Source: a virus
Reading direction: 5' to 3' (one strand)
IMG/VR virus record: IMGVR_UViG_3300032240_000516
Location: 1-24,683 of that record
Length of the DNA: 24,683 bases
Shown: piece after piece, positions 1 to 4,673 of the stretch
Layout of the letters: each line of letters begins with the position of its first letter
Numbering within the stretch: the first letter of the stretch is position 1
Position numbers and translations under genes: made by a program
Notes under the pieces: generated by a model
What the model was told of the DNA's origin: nothing
What the model saw: only the letters and a program-made list of their open reading frames with translations
Database searches by the model: none

Positions 1-1728
1 AGGTTCTGGGGCGACGTCTGGTGCAGGTGCAGGTTCTGGTGCAGGTGCTGGTGCGGGTGCTGGAGCGGGTGCTGGTGCTGGAGCGGGTGCTGGAGCGGGT
101 GCTGGTGCTGGAGCGGGTGGCGGAGGTGGCATGGGTATTGAACTAATAAATGTTTGTGCTTCTTGAATAATTGTTGGGGCGGCTAATACTTTTTCAACAG
201 CAGTTGACACTATTTCAAGAGCTGCTATTTTATTATTTAATTCTGTACTTGCATTATTTAAAGAAACTATTGCATTGTGTGAAACAGTTGCTATTGGTGC
301 AATAACTGTATTTGCATTAACTGTATTTGCTGTAACAACTGTTGTAATTGTTGAATTTAATGTAGCAATTTGAGCGTTAGCAGTTTCAACTGCTGCTTGA
401 ACAGCAGCGGTACTTGGGTCTGGAATTGGTACAAATGGAGCACCTTGTGCAACAACTCCGTTAAAACCAGGACCAGGATTTGTATCAACAATAGGAATAA
501 TTGTTCCGTTGGTAGTAGGGCGAATATTAAAACGAGCACCGTTAGGAATAGGTCCAGTAACGCTTACATCTGCTGCCCAAGCTCCATCTGATGGATTTAC
601 ATCTGCATTAAATCTAATTTGAGTCATTTGTGTGTCTGCAGTAAATTGTGGGTAAGGACGTACATCCCAGGCAACAGTAAGAGTATTTGTGGTTGTTGAA
701 TAAGTCACTCCAGAACCACTGCTCCATGTAGTCCAGTCATAGCCCGCTACAGAAATTGATGGTGCGGTTGGAGTAGAATAATAATTTTGTCCTTCATTTA
801 CGCCAAACATTATTGTTCCATTAGATCCTACATAAACATTGTTATAAACAGTGTTACCCATTCGTAAATTAAATGGAAGGTTCATGCGAACACCAGCATC
901 GTCTGTGTTTGCCAAAACATTAGTTGATGCTCCAATTGTTGCTGCTAGGGCATTAACTGCATCTTGAGCATTATTAATTGCAACATTTGCTTGAGTTAAT
1001 TGTGTTTGTGCTTCTGTACGTGCAGGTGTTACTGCTGCCACCGCCGTAGTTGCTGTAGCAACTGTTGCAGTAGCAGTATCTATTGCTGTTTGTGCTGTTT
1101 GAATTGCAGCGGTTGCTGTTGCTGCTTGTGCAGTCTCTGTTTCTACATGAGTTGCAACCTGTGTAACATTTATATTTGGAGCAGGATTTTGTGTTGTAGT
1201 AGGAGTTGCTAATTCAACTACTGCTTGTACTAAAGTTGTTGCTGCTTCTGTAACTGTTGATACCGCCGCAGTTACTGCGGCTTGTGCAGTTGCAACCTCT
1301 GGGGTTGCTGTTGTTGCGGCCGCTGGTATTGCTGCTACTGCAGTAGTTACTGCTGCTACTGCACTAGTAACGTTTTGCGTTACTACTGTTGCTGTTTCAA
1401 CTATTGGGGTTGTATTTGCAACTTCTGCCACTGCTGCCACTGCTGTTGTTACTGCGGTATTGGCTGTTGCTACTGCTGTATTTGATGCTGTAACTAAAGT
1501 TACTGCCGTTGCAACTGTTGCTGTTGCTGTCTCTGATGCTGCTACTGCTTGTGCTACCTCTATGGTTGCGGTAGCAAGTGCTGTATTAACTGCTTGTTGT
1601 GCTGGACTTACAATAACTTGCTCTGCTGAAGCTGGAACTTCATCAGCATGAGCAGATTTAATTGGAAATAGAAAAAGCCAACCTATTACAAAAAGGCTGG
1701 CAAATAATAGCTTTACTTTCTTAGTCAA
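1..1728 (-). CDS. Exported Ala/Thr/Pro-rich surface or fibre-like protein, 3' end cut by window
   Basis: The frame is open for 576 codons from a TTG at 1728 to the window edge, with no stop. TTG is chosen because GGAGAG lies 5 bases upstream and the first residues form a signal peptide: LTKK, a hydrophobic run to about residue 24, then an SAHA-type cleavage site. Residues ~35-270 are low-complexity Ala/Thr/Val with heptad-like spacing, suggesting a helical stalk. Residues ~277-400 look like a compact beta-rich domain (Trp/Tyr/Gly pattern, motif VYVGSNGTIMFG). A second Ala/Thr stretch follows, then from ~534 a run of Pro-Ala dipeptides. It could be a virion fibre or a protein placed on the host surface. 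A signal peptide is unusual for a virion protein and favours export. I do not recognise a named family. Confidence is high for coding and low for role. Confidence 0.85.
   Translation of the reverse strand, partial: MTKKVKLLFASLFVIGWLFLFPIKSAHADEVPASAEQVIVSPAQQAVNTALATATIEVAQAVAASETATATVATAVTLVTASNTAVATANTAVTTAVAAVAEVANTTPIVETATVVTQNVTSAVAAVTTAVAAIPAAATTATPEVATAQAAVTAAVSTVTEAATTLVQAVVELATPTTTQNPAPNINVTQVATHVETETAQAATATAAIQTAQTAIDTATATVATATTAVAAVTPARTEAQTQLTQANVAINNAQDAVNALAATIGASTNVLANTDDAGVRMNLPFNLRMGNTVYNNVYVGSNGTIMFGVNEGQNYYSTPTAPSISVAGYDWTTWSSGSGVTYSTTTNTLTVAWDVRPYPQFTADTQMTQIRFNADVNPSDGAWAADVSVTGPIPNGARFNIRPTTNGTIIPIVDTNPGPGFNGVVAQGAPFVPIPDPSTAAVQAAVETANAQIATLNSTITTVVTANTVNANTVIAPIATVSHNAIVSLNNASTELNNKIAALEIVSTAVEKVLAAPTIIQEAQTFISSIPMPPPPPAPAPAPAPAPAPAPAPAPAPAPAPAPEPAPAPDVAPEP
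59..118. repeat. Perfect 30-bp tandem duplication in Pro-Ala coding region
   Basis: Bases 59-88 and 89-118 are identical 30-bp units, and shorter related GGTGCTGG/GAGCGGGT units flank them from about 20 to 125. They code on the minus strand for alternating Pro and Ala. The stretch is much richer in G+C than the rest of the window, and repeats of this type change length easily by slippage. Confidence 0.9.
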
Positions 1729-2516: not shown

Positions 2517-2545
2517 ATTATAGCATTTACTTTTAGTTATCGGAA
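2517..2545 (-). promoter_or_regulatory. Extended -10 promoter for hsp20
   Basis: The minus strand reads TGCTATAAT at 2517-2525, an ideal extended -10 box. With a 17-base spacer the -35 position is TTCCGA (2540-2545), a poor match, as is common with extended -10 promoters. Predicted transcription starts near 2510. The upstream gene ends at 2533, inside the promoter. Confidence 0.6.
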
Positions 2546-3078
2546 GTATCTGGAGCTTTTGAATCTGCTGCAGTTACATACTTTTTATATGCTGAAGGCC
2601 AATCTAAAATAGCTTTTTGAGCATCAGCCAATTTAATTGTTCCCGCACATACTAAACGCTTAAGTGCTGTTTCTACAACATCCTTTTTACGTGCACCGTT
2701 TCCAGCATATGGCTGAGGCCACAAATTCTTTGGGTCTGAAGGATTGCCTCCAAGTTGCAAAGAAATTAGGTGATCTTCTTCGTATCCCGATGCTGATGGT
2801 CCCCACATTTTTGTGTATGCCGCATAAGTTGTCTTTAGCTGAGTATCTTTTAACTTGTTTGTGTATGTAACTGTTGGACGAATTGTTGCTGTCCATCCAG
2901 ACTTACAAACAGTTGTTGAGATATTTGCTTGAGTTACAGAAGCATTTAAAGCTCCTGGAGTAACAGCATTATTTTGAACAACCCAATCAAGTGTTGCTGC
3001 TGGCTTAGTAGCTGCTGATGCTGAAGCACCTGCTGCAACTAATGAAATAAAGAAAGCAAATACGATTCCCTTTTTCAT
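2533..3078 (-). CDS. Exported protein with HNH/His-Me-finger-like nuclease domain
   Basis: A 181-residue protein. Residues 1-22 form a signal peptide (MKKG, hydrophobic core, ASASA cleavage site), so it should leave the cytoplasm. The C-terminal half holds a motif set seen in secreted and phage-encoded HNH-like domains: EEDHLISLQLGG, then DPKNLWPQP, then an Arg-Lys-Lys helix and LVCAGTIKLADAQKAI. The His after Asp is a likely metal or catalytic residue. Two Cys (in VCKSGW and LVCAG) could form a disulfide after export. The ATG overlaps the endolysin stop by one base (TAATG), so the two are translationally coupled. That context suggests a role at lysis or outside the cell, such as cutting released DNA. 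Nuclease activity is inferred from motifs only. Confidence 0.75.
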   Translation of the reverse strand: MKKGIVFAFFISLVAAGASASAATKPAATLDWVVQNNAVTPGALNASVTQANISTTVCKSGWTATIRPTVTYTNKLKDTQLKTTYAAYTKMWGPSASGYEEDHLISLQLGGNPSDPKNLWPQPYAGNGARKKDVVETALKRLVCAGTIKLADAQKAILDWPSAYKKYVTAADSKAPDTSDN

Positions 3079-3587
3079 TACTTAGTTGGCCACTTTGGAC
3101 GAGCAATTGCCATAACTAAACCATAATTGCGAGATTTCTTGAAGGCACCGTCGCCATTTGCTTGTGATCCCTTAACATCTCCGCTAGTATTTCCCTCAAA
3201 AGTTGTTAGTACATGTTTTGCTGGATCATTAGCGTAAACAATTCCTACGTGCTCTGCTGTTGTTGCATCTGCATCAAAATTAAAAAATACTATATCTCCT
3301 GGTTGTGCTTGTCCCACTGGAACAAGTTGCCCGTTCTTTCCAAACCATTTTACACCAGCGTTGCATGATGCAAATCCCTTTGGTCCCTGTGCTGCAACAA
3401 GATTGACTAATCCCGCTTCATTAAAACAGTATGAGACAAACATTGCACACCATGGTTGATGATTTAATCCAAACCACTTACCCATAATTGTGTCATTGTT
3501 TTCGCCTTCTTTGTAACCTTGATCTACAAACTTTTTTGCTGCAGCTAAAACTTTTACTGCATTTGGATTTCTTGTATCTTCTGCCAT
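3078..3587 (-). CDS. CHAP-domain endolysin (peptidoglycan hydrolase)
   Basis: A 169-residue single-domain protein of CHAP (NlpC/P60-like cysteine amidase/peptidase) type, expected to cleave peptide bonds in peptidoglycan at the end of infection. The nucleophile is C47 in QPWCAMFVSYCF. The partner His is H113 in AEHVGIV, and the third polar residue is near E131-N133 in FEGNTS. GDIVFF (97-102) is the usual strand before the His. No signal peptide, membrane segment or wall-binding repeat is seen, so release would need a holin, which I do not find here. AAGGAG lies 7 bases before the ATG. It has its own extended -10 promoter right after tRNA-Arg and is coupled to the exported HNH-like gene downstream. 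A virion-associated or other hydrolase role cannot be excluded. Confidence 0.85.
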   Translation of the reverse strand: MAEDTRNPNAVKVLAAAKKFVDQGYKEGENNDTIMGKWFGLNHQPWCAMFVSYCFNEAGLVNLVAAQGPKGFASCNAGVKWFGKNGQLVPVGQAQPGDIVFFNFDADATTAEHVGIVYANDPAKHVLTTFEGNTSGDVKGSQANGDGAFKKSRNYGLVMAIARPKWPTK

Positions 3588-3626: not shown

Positions 3627-3631
3627 TTTTG

Positions 3632-3704
3632 TGCCCTCGGCAGGAATCGAACCTGCGACGCAGACCTTAGAAGAGTCTCGCTCTATCCCCTGAGCTACGA
3701 AGGC
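3632..3704 (-). tRNA. tRNA-Arg (anticodon TCT)
   Basis: The 73 bases fold as a full cloverleaf. The acceptor is GCCTTCG with CGAGGGC, the D stem GCTC/GAGC, the anticodon stem AGACT/GGTCT around loop CTTCTAA, and the T arm GCAGG-TTCGATT-CCTGC, with discriminator A. CCA is not encoded. Anticodon TCT reads AGA, a codon common in AT-rich phage genes and often rare in their hosts, a usual reason for phages to carry this tRNA. Confidence 0.95.
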
Positions 3705-3816: not shown

Positions 3817-4263
3817 TTATGACATGGTGGCTTTAAGGCTTGCCTTAATTTGCCAATCCCAAAATTGATGTTGATCAATTCTTTCTGCAATAAAGTTTGC
3901 TACACCTTGTTCATCAATAGCATCTGCTTTATCAAATGCATCCTTTAAAGAAGCAAGCATAACTAAGTTTGTTGCTTCCAAACTTTGAAGTAAAGGAATA
4001 GCTGTATATGGAATATCTTCATATGCCATATTAGAATTGCTCATCCATTCTGTCAACTTGTATGGAGCTGGTTGCCCAAGCTTTCTTAAAATTTCAGAAA
4101 ATGTATCTAAAGAATCATATACATCTTCATAGATCTCCAAAAAGAATGCATGGAATTGCTTAAACAAAATTCCTTCTATATTCCAATGGTATCCATGTGC
4201 TTTGCTATACATTACTACTACATTTGCCTGCACTAATCGCAAGGCATCAATTAATTCCTGCAT
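3817..4263 (-). CDS. Dps-like ferritin-fold protein
   Basis: A 148-residue protein with the Dps/ferritin-like four-helix pattern. AHGYHWNIEG (23-32) carries the His-Trp of the Dps ferroxidase entry helix, followed by FKQFHAFFLEIYEDVYDSLDTFSEILRKLGQP, in which His, Asp and acidic residues are spaced as in Dps. A C-terminal helix ends in IDQHQFWDWQIKASL. Dps proteins oxidise and store iron with peroxide and many coat DNA. The usual lysine-rich DNA-binding tail is missing here. AGGAG lies 5 bases before the ATG and the gene follows the small acidic gene by 8 bases. A phage copy could protect incoming or packaged DNA from oxidative damage, which is inference. Confidence 0.85.
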   Translation of the reverse strand: MQELIDALRLVQANVVVMYSKAHGYHWNIEGILFKQFHAFFLEIYEDVYDSLDTFSEILRKLGQPAPYKLTEWMSNSNMAYEDIPYTAIPLLQSLEATNLVMLASLKDAFDKADAIDEQGVANFIAERIDQHQFWDWQIKASLKATMS

Positions 4264-4586: not shown

Positions 4587-4599
4587 CTCTTTCTCCTTG

Positions 4600-4673
4600 T
4601 GCGGCAGGTAGGACTTGAACCTACGATTACCGAATTATGAGTTCGGGGCTTTAACCAACTAAGCTACTACCAC
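4600..4673 (-). tRNA. tRNA with CAT anticodon (elongator Met or Ile2)
   Basis: The 74 bases fold fully: acceptor GTGGTAG with CTGCCGC (two G-T wobbles), D stem GCTT/AAGC, anticodon stem CCGAA/TTCGG around loop CTCATAA, T arm GTAGG-TTCAAGT-CCTAC, discriminator A, no encoded CCA. The paired first base and the lack of three G-C pairs in the anticodon stem argue against initiator tRNA. It may be elongator Met, or Ile2, whose CAT is modified to read ATA. Confidence 0.92.

Follow-up and report, generated by a model that had tools for sequence, protein, structure and literature searches.

Why should a phage tie the gene of its endolysin to that of an exported, nuclease-like protein? The question arises from a single virus record of 24,683 bases, analyzed here as a whole and referred to below as the window. 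Two genes lie together in it on the minus strand, at positions 2533 to 3587. The upstream gene (3078..3587, minus strand) encodes a CHAP endolysin of 169 amino acids that lacks a Sec-like N-terminus and belongs to the CHAP family by its match to PF05257 (E 3.7e-9, 37.4 bits against a cut-off of 26); it also matches PHROG 21357, annotated as endolysin, with an E value of 2.8e-56. The downstream gene (2533..3078, minus strand) encodes a protein of 181 amino acids, predicted to be exported and HNH-like, which we name EDH after its motif. The two genes overlap by one base in TAATG (3076..3080, minus strand), where the stop codon of the endolysin runs into the start codon of EDH, and relatives have the same junction. 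An earlier note, made from the sequence alone, had proposed that the protein is translated with the CHAP endolysin, and the gene layout together with both family matches bears this out.

The surroundings of the pair were also surveyed. No convincing membrane protein that could be a holin was recognized near the endolysin within the window, which is one virus record. Promoter-like sites around the gene pair were fewer than in shuffled sequences (6 versus 10.1). A perfect 12/12 sigma-70-like site, TTGACA-18-TATAAT, lies at 4712-4683 (minus strand), upstream of tRNA-Met and the endolysin region. A tRNA-Arg(tct) at 3631-3704 and a tRNA-Met(cat) at 4599-4673 (minus) are found between terminase and endolysin. 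Genes for a ferritin/Dps-like protein (3817-4263) and an Hsp20 (2026-2454, minus) flank the lysis pair, and both recur around the same slot in relatives. At the edge of the window (1-1728, minus) is an open-ended frame of 576 amino acids that begins like a signal peptide, has long stretches of Ala/Thr/Val and carries a Pro-Ala tail; a protein of our cluster c7, up to 937 amino acids long and with a similar start, lies downstream of the nuclease in many relatives. The host is probably an actinobacterium. The named-phage terminases closest to that of the window are from Streptomyces phages (63.7% identity), and terminase matches in 343 named-phage records include 127 Streptomyces phages and 97 Gordonia phages.

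HNH-type motifs (EEDHLISLQLGG...NLWP...KKDVVE) had been read in EDH by the earlier note. The motif YEEDHLISLQLGG spans residues 99-111 (2746..2784, minus strand) and contains E100, D102 and H103; N118 (2725..2727, minus) is the conserved Asn of the HNH-like core, and K132-D133-xx-E136 (2671..2685, minus) lies on the core helix. These seven residues and the cysteines C58 and C144 show no variation among 160 EDH relatives, a set biased toward the motif because its loci had been retrieved by patterns that included EEDHLI and KDVVET. Among 15 relatives fetched without patterns (a 16th row, L441, was misaligned and left out), D102, H103, K132, C58 and C144 are kept in all 15, and E100, N118, D133 and E136 in 14. 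The acidic-His pair and following Asn expected of a His-Me finger are present, with D102, H103 and N118 kept in 15, 15 and 14 of the 15. The third His or Asn on the helix of classical HNH proteins is not, as positions 128-131 vary across the 160 relatives and K132, D133 and E136 are invariant instead. The dN/dS of EDH against 11 of 12 relatives was 0.08 to 0.25 (the 12th was left out, its dS being saturated), and by this measure EDH is under strong purifying selection.

Named families added little to this picture. EDH reached no Pfam family at the cut-off, the only match being a weak one to PF13930 (Endonuclea_NS_2; 14.8 bits against 27), and no HNH model was among the Pfam matches of 32 EDH members. 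NCBIfam gave nothing above its curated cut-off, PHROGs and PADLOC gave no match, and a PDB sequence search with EDH returned nothing relevant. Profiles of GmrSD_C (PF07510) likewise did not match EDH (hhalign E 0.27, probability 0.2%). Three of 28 BFVD matches were significant, one to an uncharacterized phage protein at 74% identity and two to phage proteins labeled "HNHc domain containing" at 38% and 27%, and EDH relatives in other databases bear the labels "HNHc" or "HNH endonuclease." The claim of HNH-type motifs thus held for the D-H pair, the Asn and an HNH-like core, but not for the third His/Asn or for membership in a named HNH family by sequence. A defense role was also considered, and PADLOC gave no match for EDH.

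Structure prediction had been proposed to look for a beta-beta-alpha-metal fold with the His, and a fold without the His-Me site was to count against the idea. AlphaFold, run on mature EDH with 54 sequences, gave a confident beta-beta-alpha core (pLDDT 91.4, pTM 0.85) made up, in full-length numbering, of a strand at 99-103, a strand at 119-123 and a helix from about 126/127 to 144. In the predicted models H103 ends the first strand, as in the His-Me finger topology, so that the site is part of the predicted fold. Foldseek searches of the PDB with both EDH models gave no significant match (E>1). In a VIA second look, all 10 of the 10 PDB entries at Z≥2 were HNH/EXOG-type nucleases, with Z no higher than 4.1, and for the first model all six entries at Z≥2 were beta-beta-alpha-metal nucleases. 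The best alignments were with the Gme HNH nicking endonuclease (4h9d, Z 4.1, 86 residues, 5.1 Å) and the Rhs2-CT nuclease (9t38, Z 3.5), both at weak Z and 13-18% identity. What points to HNH is thus the VIA second look together with the residues and topology of EDH. Its motif and predicted topology make EDH HNH-like in the sense of the wider His-Me group, outside the named HNH families; it falls outside strict HNH because the classical third His/Asn is not conserved and K-D-xx-E is.

What occupies the position after the endolysin in other phages proved informative. The best 80 of 149 endolysin relatives were fetched, of which 77 had room for a gene directly downstream and 3 did not. The gene there encoded an SNase in 29 cases, EDH in 13 and a GmrSD_C-type HNH protein in 1, which is 43 of 77, and none of the three in the other 34. 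Elsewhere in the 80 stretches SNase was found 13 times, EDH once and GmrSD_C once. The search for the same pair in other phages, which the earlier note had suggested, therefore found EDH after the endolysin in 13 of 77, but not in the remaining 64. Pfam confirms the SNase (PF00565, E 1.6e-17) and GmrSD_C (PF07510, E 5.4e-13) assignments, and the catalytic residues of SNase are kept in 52 of 52. When the 80 endolysins were linked at ≥90% DNA identity they formed 34 groups, with EDH in 8, SNase in 5 and GmrSD_C in 1; one such group holds all three nucleases. Approached from the nucleases, a CHAP lysin lies directly upstream of SNase in 40 of 80 loci and of GmrSD_C in 9 of 24. A second endolysin type (CHAP + PG-binding) is directly followed by one of the three nucleases in only 5 of 77 cases (SNase 3, EDH 1, GmrSD_C 1). 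The fetched stretches contained no in-frame fusion of endolysin and nuclease. In INPHARED, the window endolysin had four weak matches, and in one of them, Actinomyces phage xhp1, the neighbors of the lysin are annotated as "hypothetical protein"; GmrSD_C had six matches, and in the three examined no annotated lysin lies beside it.

Comparison by blastn indicates that the occupant has been exchanged within conserved surroundings. The flanks can be aligned (68-89%), and the alignment breaks over the nuclease where the nuclease differs. The locus pair L206 (GmrSD_C) and L212 (SNase) has 83.7% identity across 2.4 kb of upstream DNA and 89% across the endolysin gene; the match ends at the nuclease and returns behind it (82.9%). 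L215 (EDH) and L212 show the same pattern, with 85.6% across the endolysin and downstream pieces of 78% and 86.6%. Between L206 and L215 the similarity (87.5%) continues past the start of the nuclease gene for about 70 bases, which takes in the signal peptide, before it is lost, so that the signal-peptide DNA is common to both and only the enzyme part differs. The gene order terminase, endolysin, slot, Hsp20, zinc ribbon is common to the window, L206 and L181. Exchange is also seen behind the second endolysin type (L002 with EDH and L328 with GmrSD_C, 78-79% upstream and 69% downstream), behind a Prim-Pol protein that is 62.6% identical (L039 with EDH, L331 with GmrSD_C) and behind DUF2061 (L003 and L131 with EDH, L305 and L299 with SNase). 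On these sequence comparisons, EDH, SNase and the GmrSD_C-type HNH are at least three unrelated putative nucleases that replace each other in one slot.

The three were not found together. Each of 40 contigs of 40-130 kb that had been chosen by nuclease family (26 EDH, 10 SNase, 4 GmrSD_C) carries only its own nuclease. Among 35 contigs chosen by lysin, 9 have SNase, 2 EDH, 3 GmrSD_C, 21 none and 0 two; the zero is not significant by itself, since about 1.5 doubles would be expected under independence. The combined 74 contigs (one is common to both sets) comprise 53 with one nuclease, 21 with none and 0 with two. At the rates of the lysin-chosen set, about 9 of the 26 EDH contigs would be expected, by our own arithmetic, to carry another nuclease, and 0 do, a result weakened by the relatedness of the contigs, many of which are fragments. 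No two nucleases were found on one fetched stretch among 261 viral stretches with a nuclease, some of them from the same contig.

The note's claim of export was followed with a simple rule of our own, based on hydrophobicity and charge. The signal peptide region covers approximately residues 1-23 (3010..3078, minus strand; cleavage site placed by eye), is hydrophobic and lies within residues 1-27, for which pLDDT was below 50 in the first model. The rule calls a Sec-type N-terminus in the EDH of the window and in 70 of the 75 viral relatives that could be tested (of 81 viral loci, 6 were left out for want of a usable start), which agrees with the claim. The same rule calls it in 16 of 20 GmrSD_C proteins long enough to test, in 0 of 80 endolysins and in 0 of 52 SNases. 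The two invariant cysteines of EDH would fit a disulfide formed outside the cytoplasm; 51 of the 52 SNases have no cysteine.

EDH is not confined to phages. One scan of viral sequences yielded 45 relatives and a profile scan 104; the best 80 of the latter were kept. Bacterial and archaeal genomes yielded 88 from many phyla, again with the best 80 kept. Plasmids contributed 52 EDH records, mostly "hypothetical protein" among the 40 matches listed. Of 296 genomes sampled from one phylum, 10 have EDH (the seed genome counts among them), and of 200 from another phylum only the seed does; in bacteria, then, the family is sporadic, and phages carry it too. Among nine bacterial copies examined for domains, an Excalibur end was seen in two and a DUF3761 end in two. 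No EDH relative was found among 50,697 INPHARED records, and in the nearest isolates the endolysin/EDH pair is absent from the region examined. One relative, on a conjugative plasmid of Sphingomonas paeninsulae (L442), lies next to a muramidase gene in divergent orientation.

Among the 81 viral loci, a lysin gene lies directly upstream of EDH in 28 of the 79 that have this position. At the seven other positions within four genes it was found 0 to 7 times each (63 to 79 loci each). Downstream of EDH, the adjacent gene is a lysin in 7 of 78 loci and the second gene in 2 of 71; upstream, the second gene is a lysin in 2 of 79 and the fourth in 1 of 75. The remaining positions never have one. A lysin is directly upstream of EDH more often than chance. 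These lysins are of three kinds, CHAP, M23 (L024) and Amidase_2 (L028, and L147 by clustering). EDH and the gene upstream of it share a strand and lie no more than 2 bases apart in 61 of 79 loci. Most relatives adjoin genes for something other than a lysin, including thioredoxin-like proteins (by eye), DUF2061 and Prim-Pol. An EDH tree of 132 rows (160 before near-copies were removed), built by a quick method and with many weak branches, places most phage copies in one group; among its phage rows there are at least 13 changes of the label "beside a lysin," so the pairing appears to have been gained or lost repeatedly. The lack of both activity and conserved pairing would have spoken against the original idea. 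The pairing turned out to be conserved in part, with a lysin directly upstream in the 28 loci but with the majority of EDH genes beside others. In another phage group (L150-L154) the order is EDH followed by CHAP. Three of these loci, L152-L154, also have, ahead of EDH, a short protein whose hydrophobic segment gives it a holin-like look; the L152 copy had no PHROGs match.

The reading that we favor, to which we give an even chance, is that EDH is a secreted HNH-like nuclease, coupled to the endolysin and exchangeable, that digests the DNA freed at lysis. Late in infection the endolysin and EDH would be translated together by translational coupling. EDH would leave through Sec and fold outside with a disulfide, and the endolysin would stay inside until the membrane opens. 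Once the wall is gone, EDH would meet the spilled DNA and cut it, the packaged genomes being safe in their capsids; cutting would free virions from the DNA tangle and destroy host DNA. SNase would stay inside and encounter that DNA once the cell has lysed. Calcium is required by known SNases, and SNase may therefore be quiet before lysis; export, and for SNase probably the low cytoplasmic calcium, would shield the replicating DNA of the phage until then. Of the roles that had been listed for the protein, the digestion of released DNA gains most, because unrelated SNase and GmrSD_C replace EDH in the same slot, and this replacement speaks against wall remodeling. Counting against a role in lysis are the 51 of 79 loci in which the gene directly upstream of EDH is not a lysin, the scarcity of nucleases behind the second endolysin type and the 21 of 35 lysin-chosen contigs that have none. 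The lack of a significant Foldseek match in the PDB and the Z values of at most 4.1, both for predicted models, also count against this reading.

That EDH acts before lysis at the cell surface, cutting the DNA of rival phages or digesting environmental DNA for nucleotides or phosphate, we consider unlikely, although several observations fit it. The signal peptide would give export before lysis, EDH also adjoins genes unrelated to lysis, and bacterial EDH copies appear to be exported with no lysin in their own name or tail domains. Against these stands the SNase in the same slot, which is not predicted to be exported and could not act outside before lysis. Lysis would be the one time at which an exported and a nonexported enzyme could both reach the DNA, and this is our main argument for digestion at lysis over surface exclusion; the lack of a signal peptide may also mean that SNase has a different job. 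Repeated coupling to three kinds of lysin would not be expected of a surface enzyme either.

It is improbable that the place after the endolysin is merely a permissive late-operon site whose nucleases are cargo with no lysis-linked role. As cargo would predict, the slot is empty or filled by a non-nuclease gene in 34 of 77 cases (in 72 of 77 behind the second endolysin type), and nucleases also travel behind DUF2061 and Prim-Pol genes. Random cargo would not, however, be so enriched for one activity that three unrelated nucleases fill 43 of 77 slots, nor would it be expected to leave every examined contig without a second nuclease or to be held under strong purifying selection. Still more improbable is a degenerate or repurposed domain that is no longer a nuclease and acts on the wall or on another protein; the absence of a named family, the weak structural matches and the missing classical third HNH residue would suit it, but conservation in EDH is highest at the putative catalytic residues, and SNase and GmrSD_C take its place. 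In cos phages a packaging-type HNH protein works with the terminase, and a terminase gene does lie 1.3 kb upstream of EDH on the same strand, but such a function deserves hardly any weight given the Sec-type N-terminus and two invariant cysteines, the relatives that adjoin other genes in other phages or stand alone in bacteria, and the different, unexported HNH found nearby in Streptomyces phages with related terminases (Gilson and Phredrick).

Several known systems come close to this arrangement. As in phage lysis cassettes (holin, endolysin, spanin or lysin B), the endolysin lies in a compact operon and overlaps the gene downstream; the partner here, in contrast, is nuclease-like and exchangeable among three families, and no holin was recognized nearby in the window. 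SNase/thermonuclease of phages (PF00565, PHROG 452), which in named phages is found mostly in cyanophages, shares the slot and the same kind of overlap with EDH, but its sequence is unrelated and it has no signal peptide. GmrSD_C/DUF1524-type secreted HNH proteins (PF07510) share the slot, a signal peptide, several cysteines and a D-H motif, but their profile does not match EDH. Exported EDH proteins of bacteria, from many phyla and plasmids, have the same domain at about 40-60% identity, and differ from the phage copies in their sporadic occurrence and in the Excalibur or DUF3761 ends of some. Prophages of Streptococcus pyogenes carry the secreted DNases Spd1, Spd3 and Sda, which are discussed as virulence factors of the lysogen (PMC4710455). 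EDH resembles them in being phage-borne, predicted to be secreted and putatively DNA degrading, and differs in that its gene overlaps the endolysin gene. Secreted DNases on prophages are thus already known. No described nuclease coupled to an endolysin, and no endolysin-coupled slot with unrelated, mutually exclusive nucleases, was found in the open-access literature searched; the remark of the earlier note that no lysis cassette of this form was familiar agrees with this search.

The replacement of EDH by two unrelated nucleases suggests that these phages need a DNA-cutting enzyme when the cell bursts. Tentatively, and a little short of an even chance, we propose that some actinobacterial phages have a further lysis component, an endolysin-coupled nuclease that clears DNA, of which three kinds are interchangeable and a phage carries at most one. 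What is required would be the activity and not a particular protein, so that three unrelated nucleases can be exchanged in one slot. Accounts of lysis usually deal with membrane and wall. Were the proposal true, the release of virions from tangled DNA would be a step under selection, and the phage would partly set the fate of host DNA after viral lysis. The exchange of three nucleases in one slot amounts to a natural experiment, and it predicts that they can substitute for one another.

Two further genes recur near these loci. In a subset of L282-L311, a small basic protein rich in Lys, Ala and Pro precedes SNase with a -1 overlap; the L282 copy has no Pfam family. A gene with the look of an Ntn-hydrolase (MTTIVAVQYKDKCVIAADNQVTG..., proteasome-like by eye) lies near the lysin or nuclease in many phages, after the second endolysin type in L349-L402 and after EDH in L009, L010 and L027.
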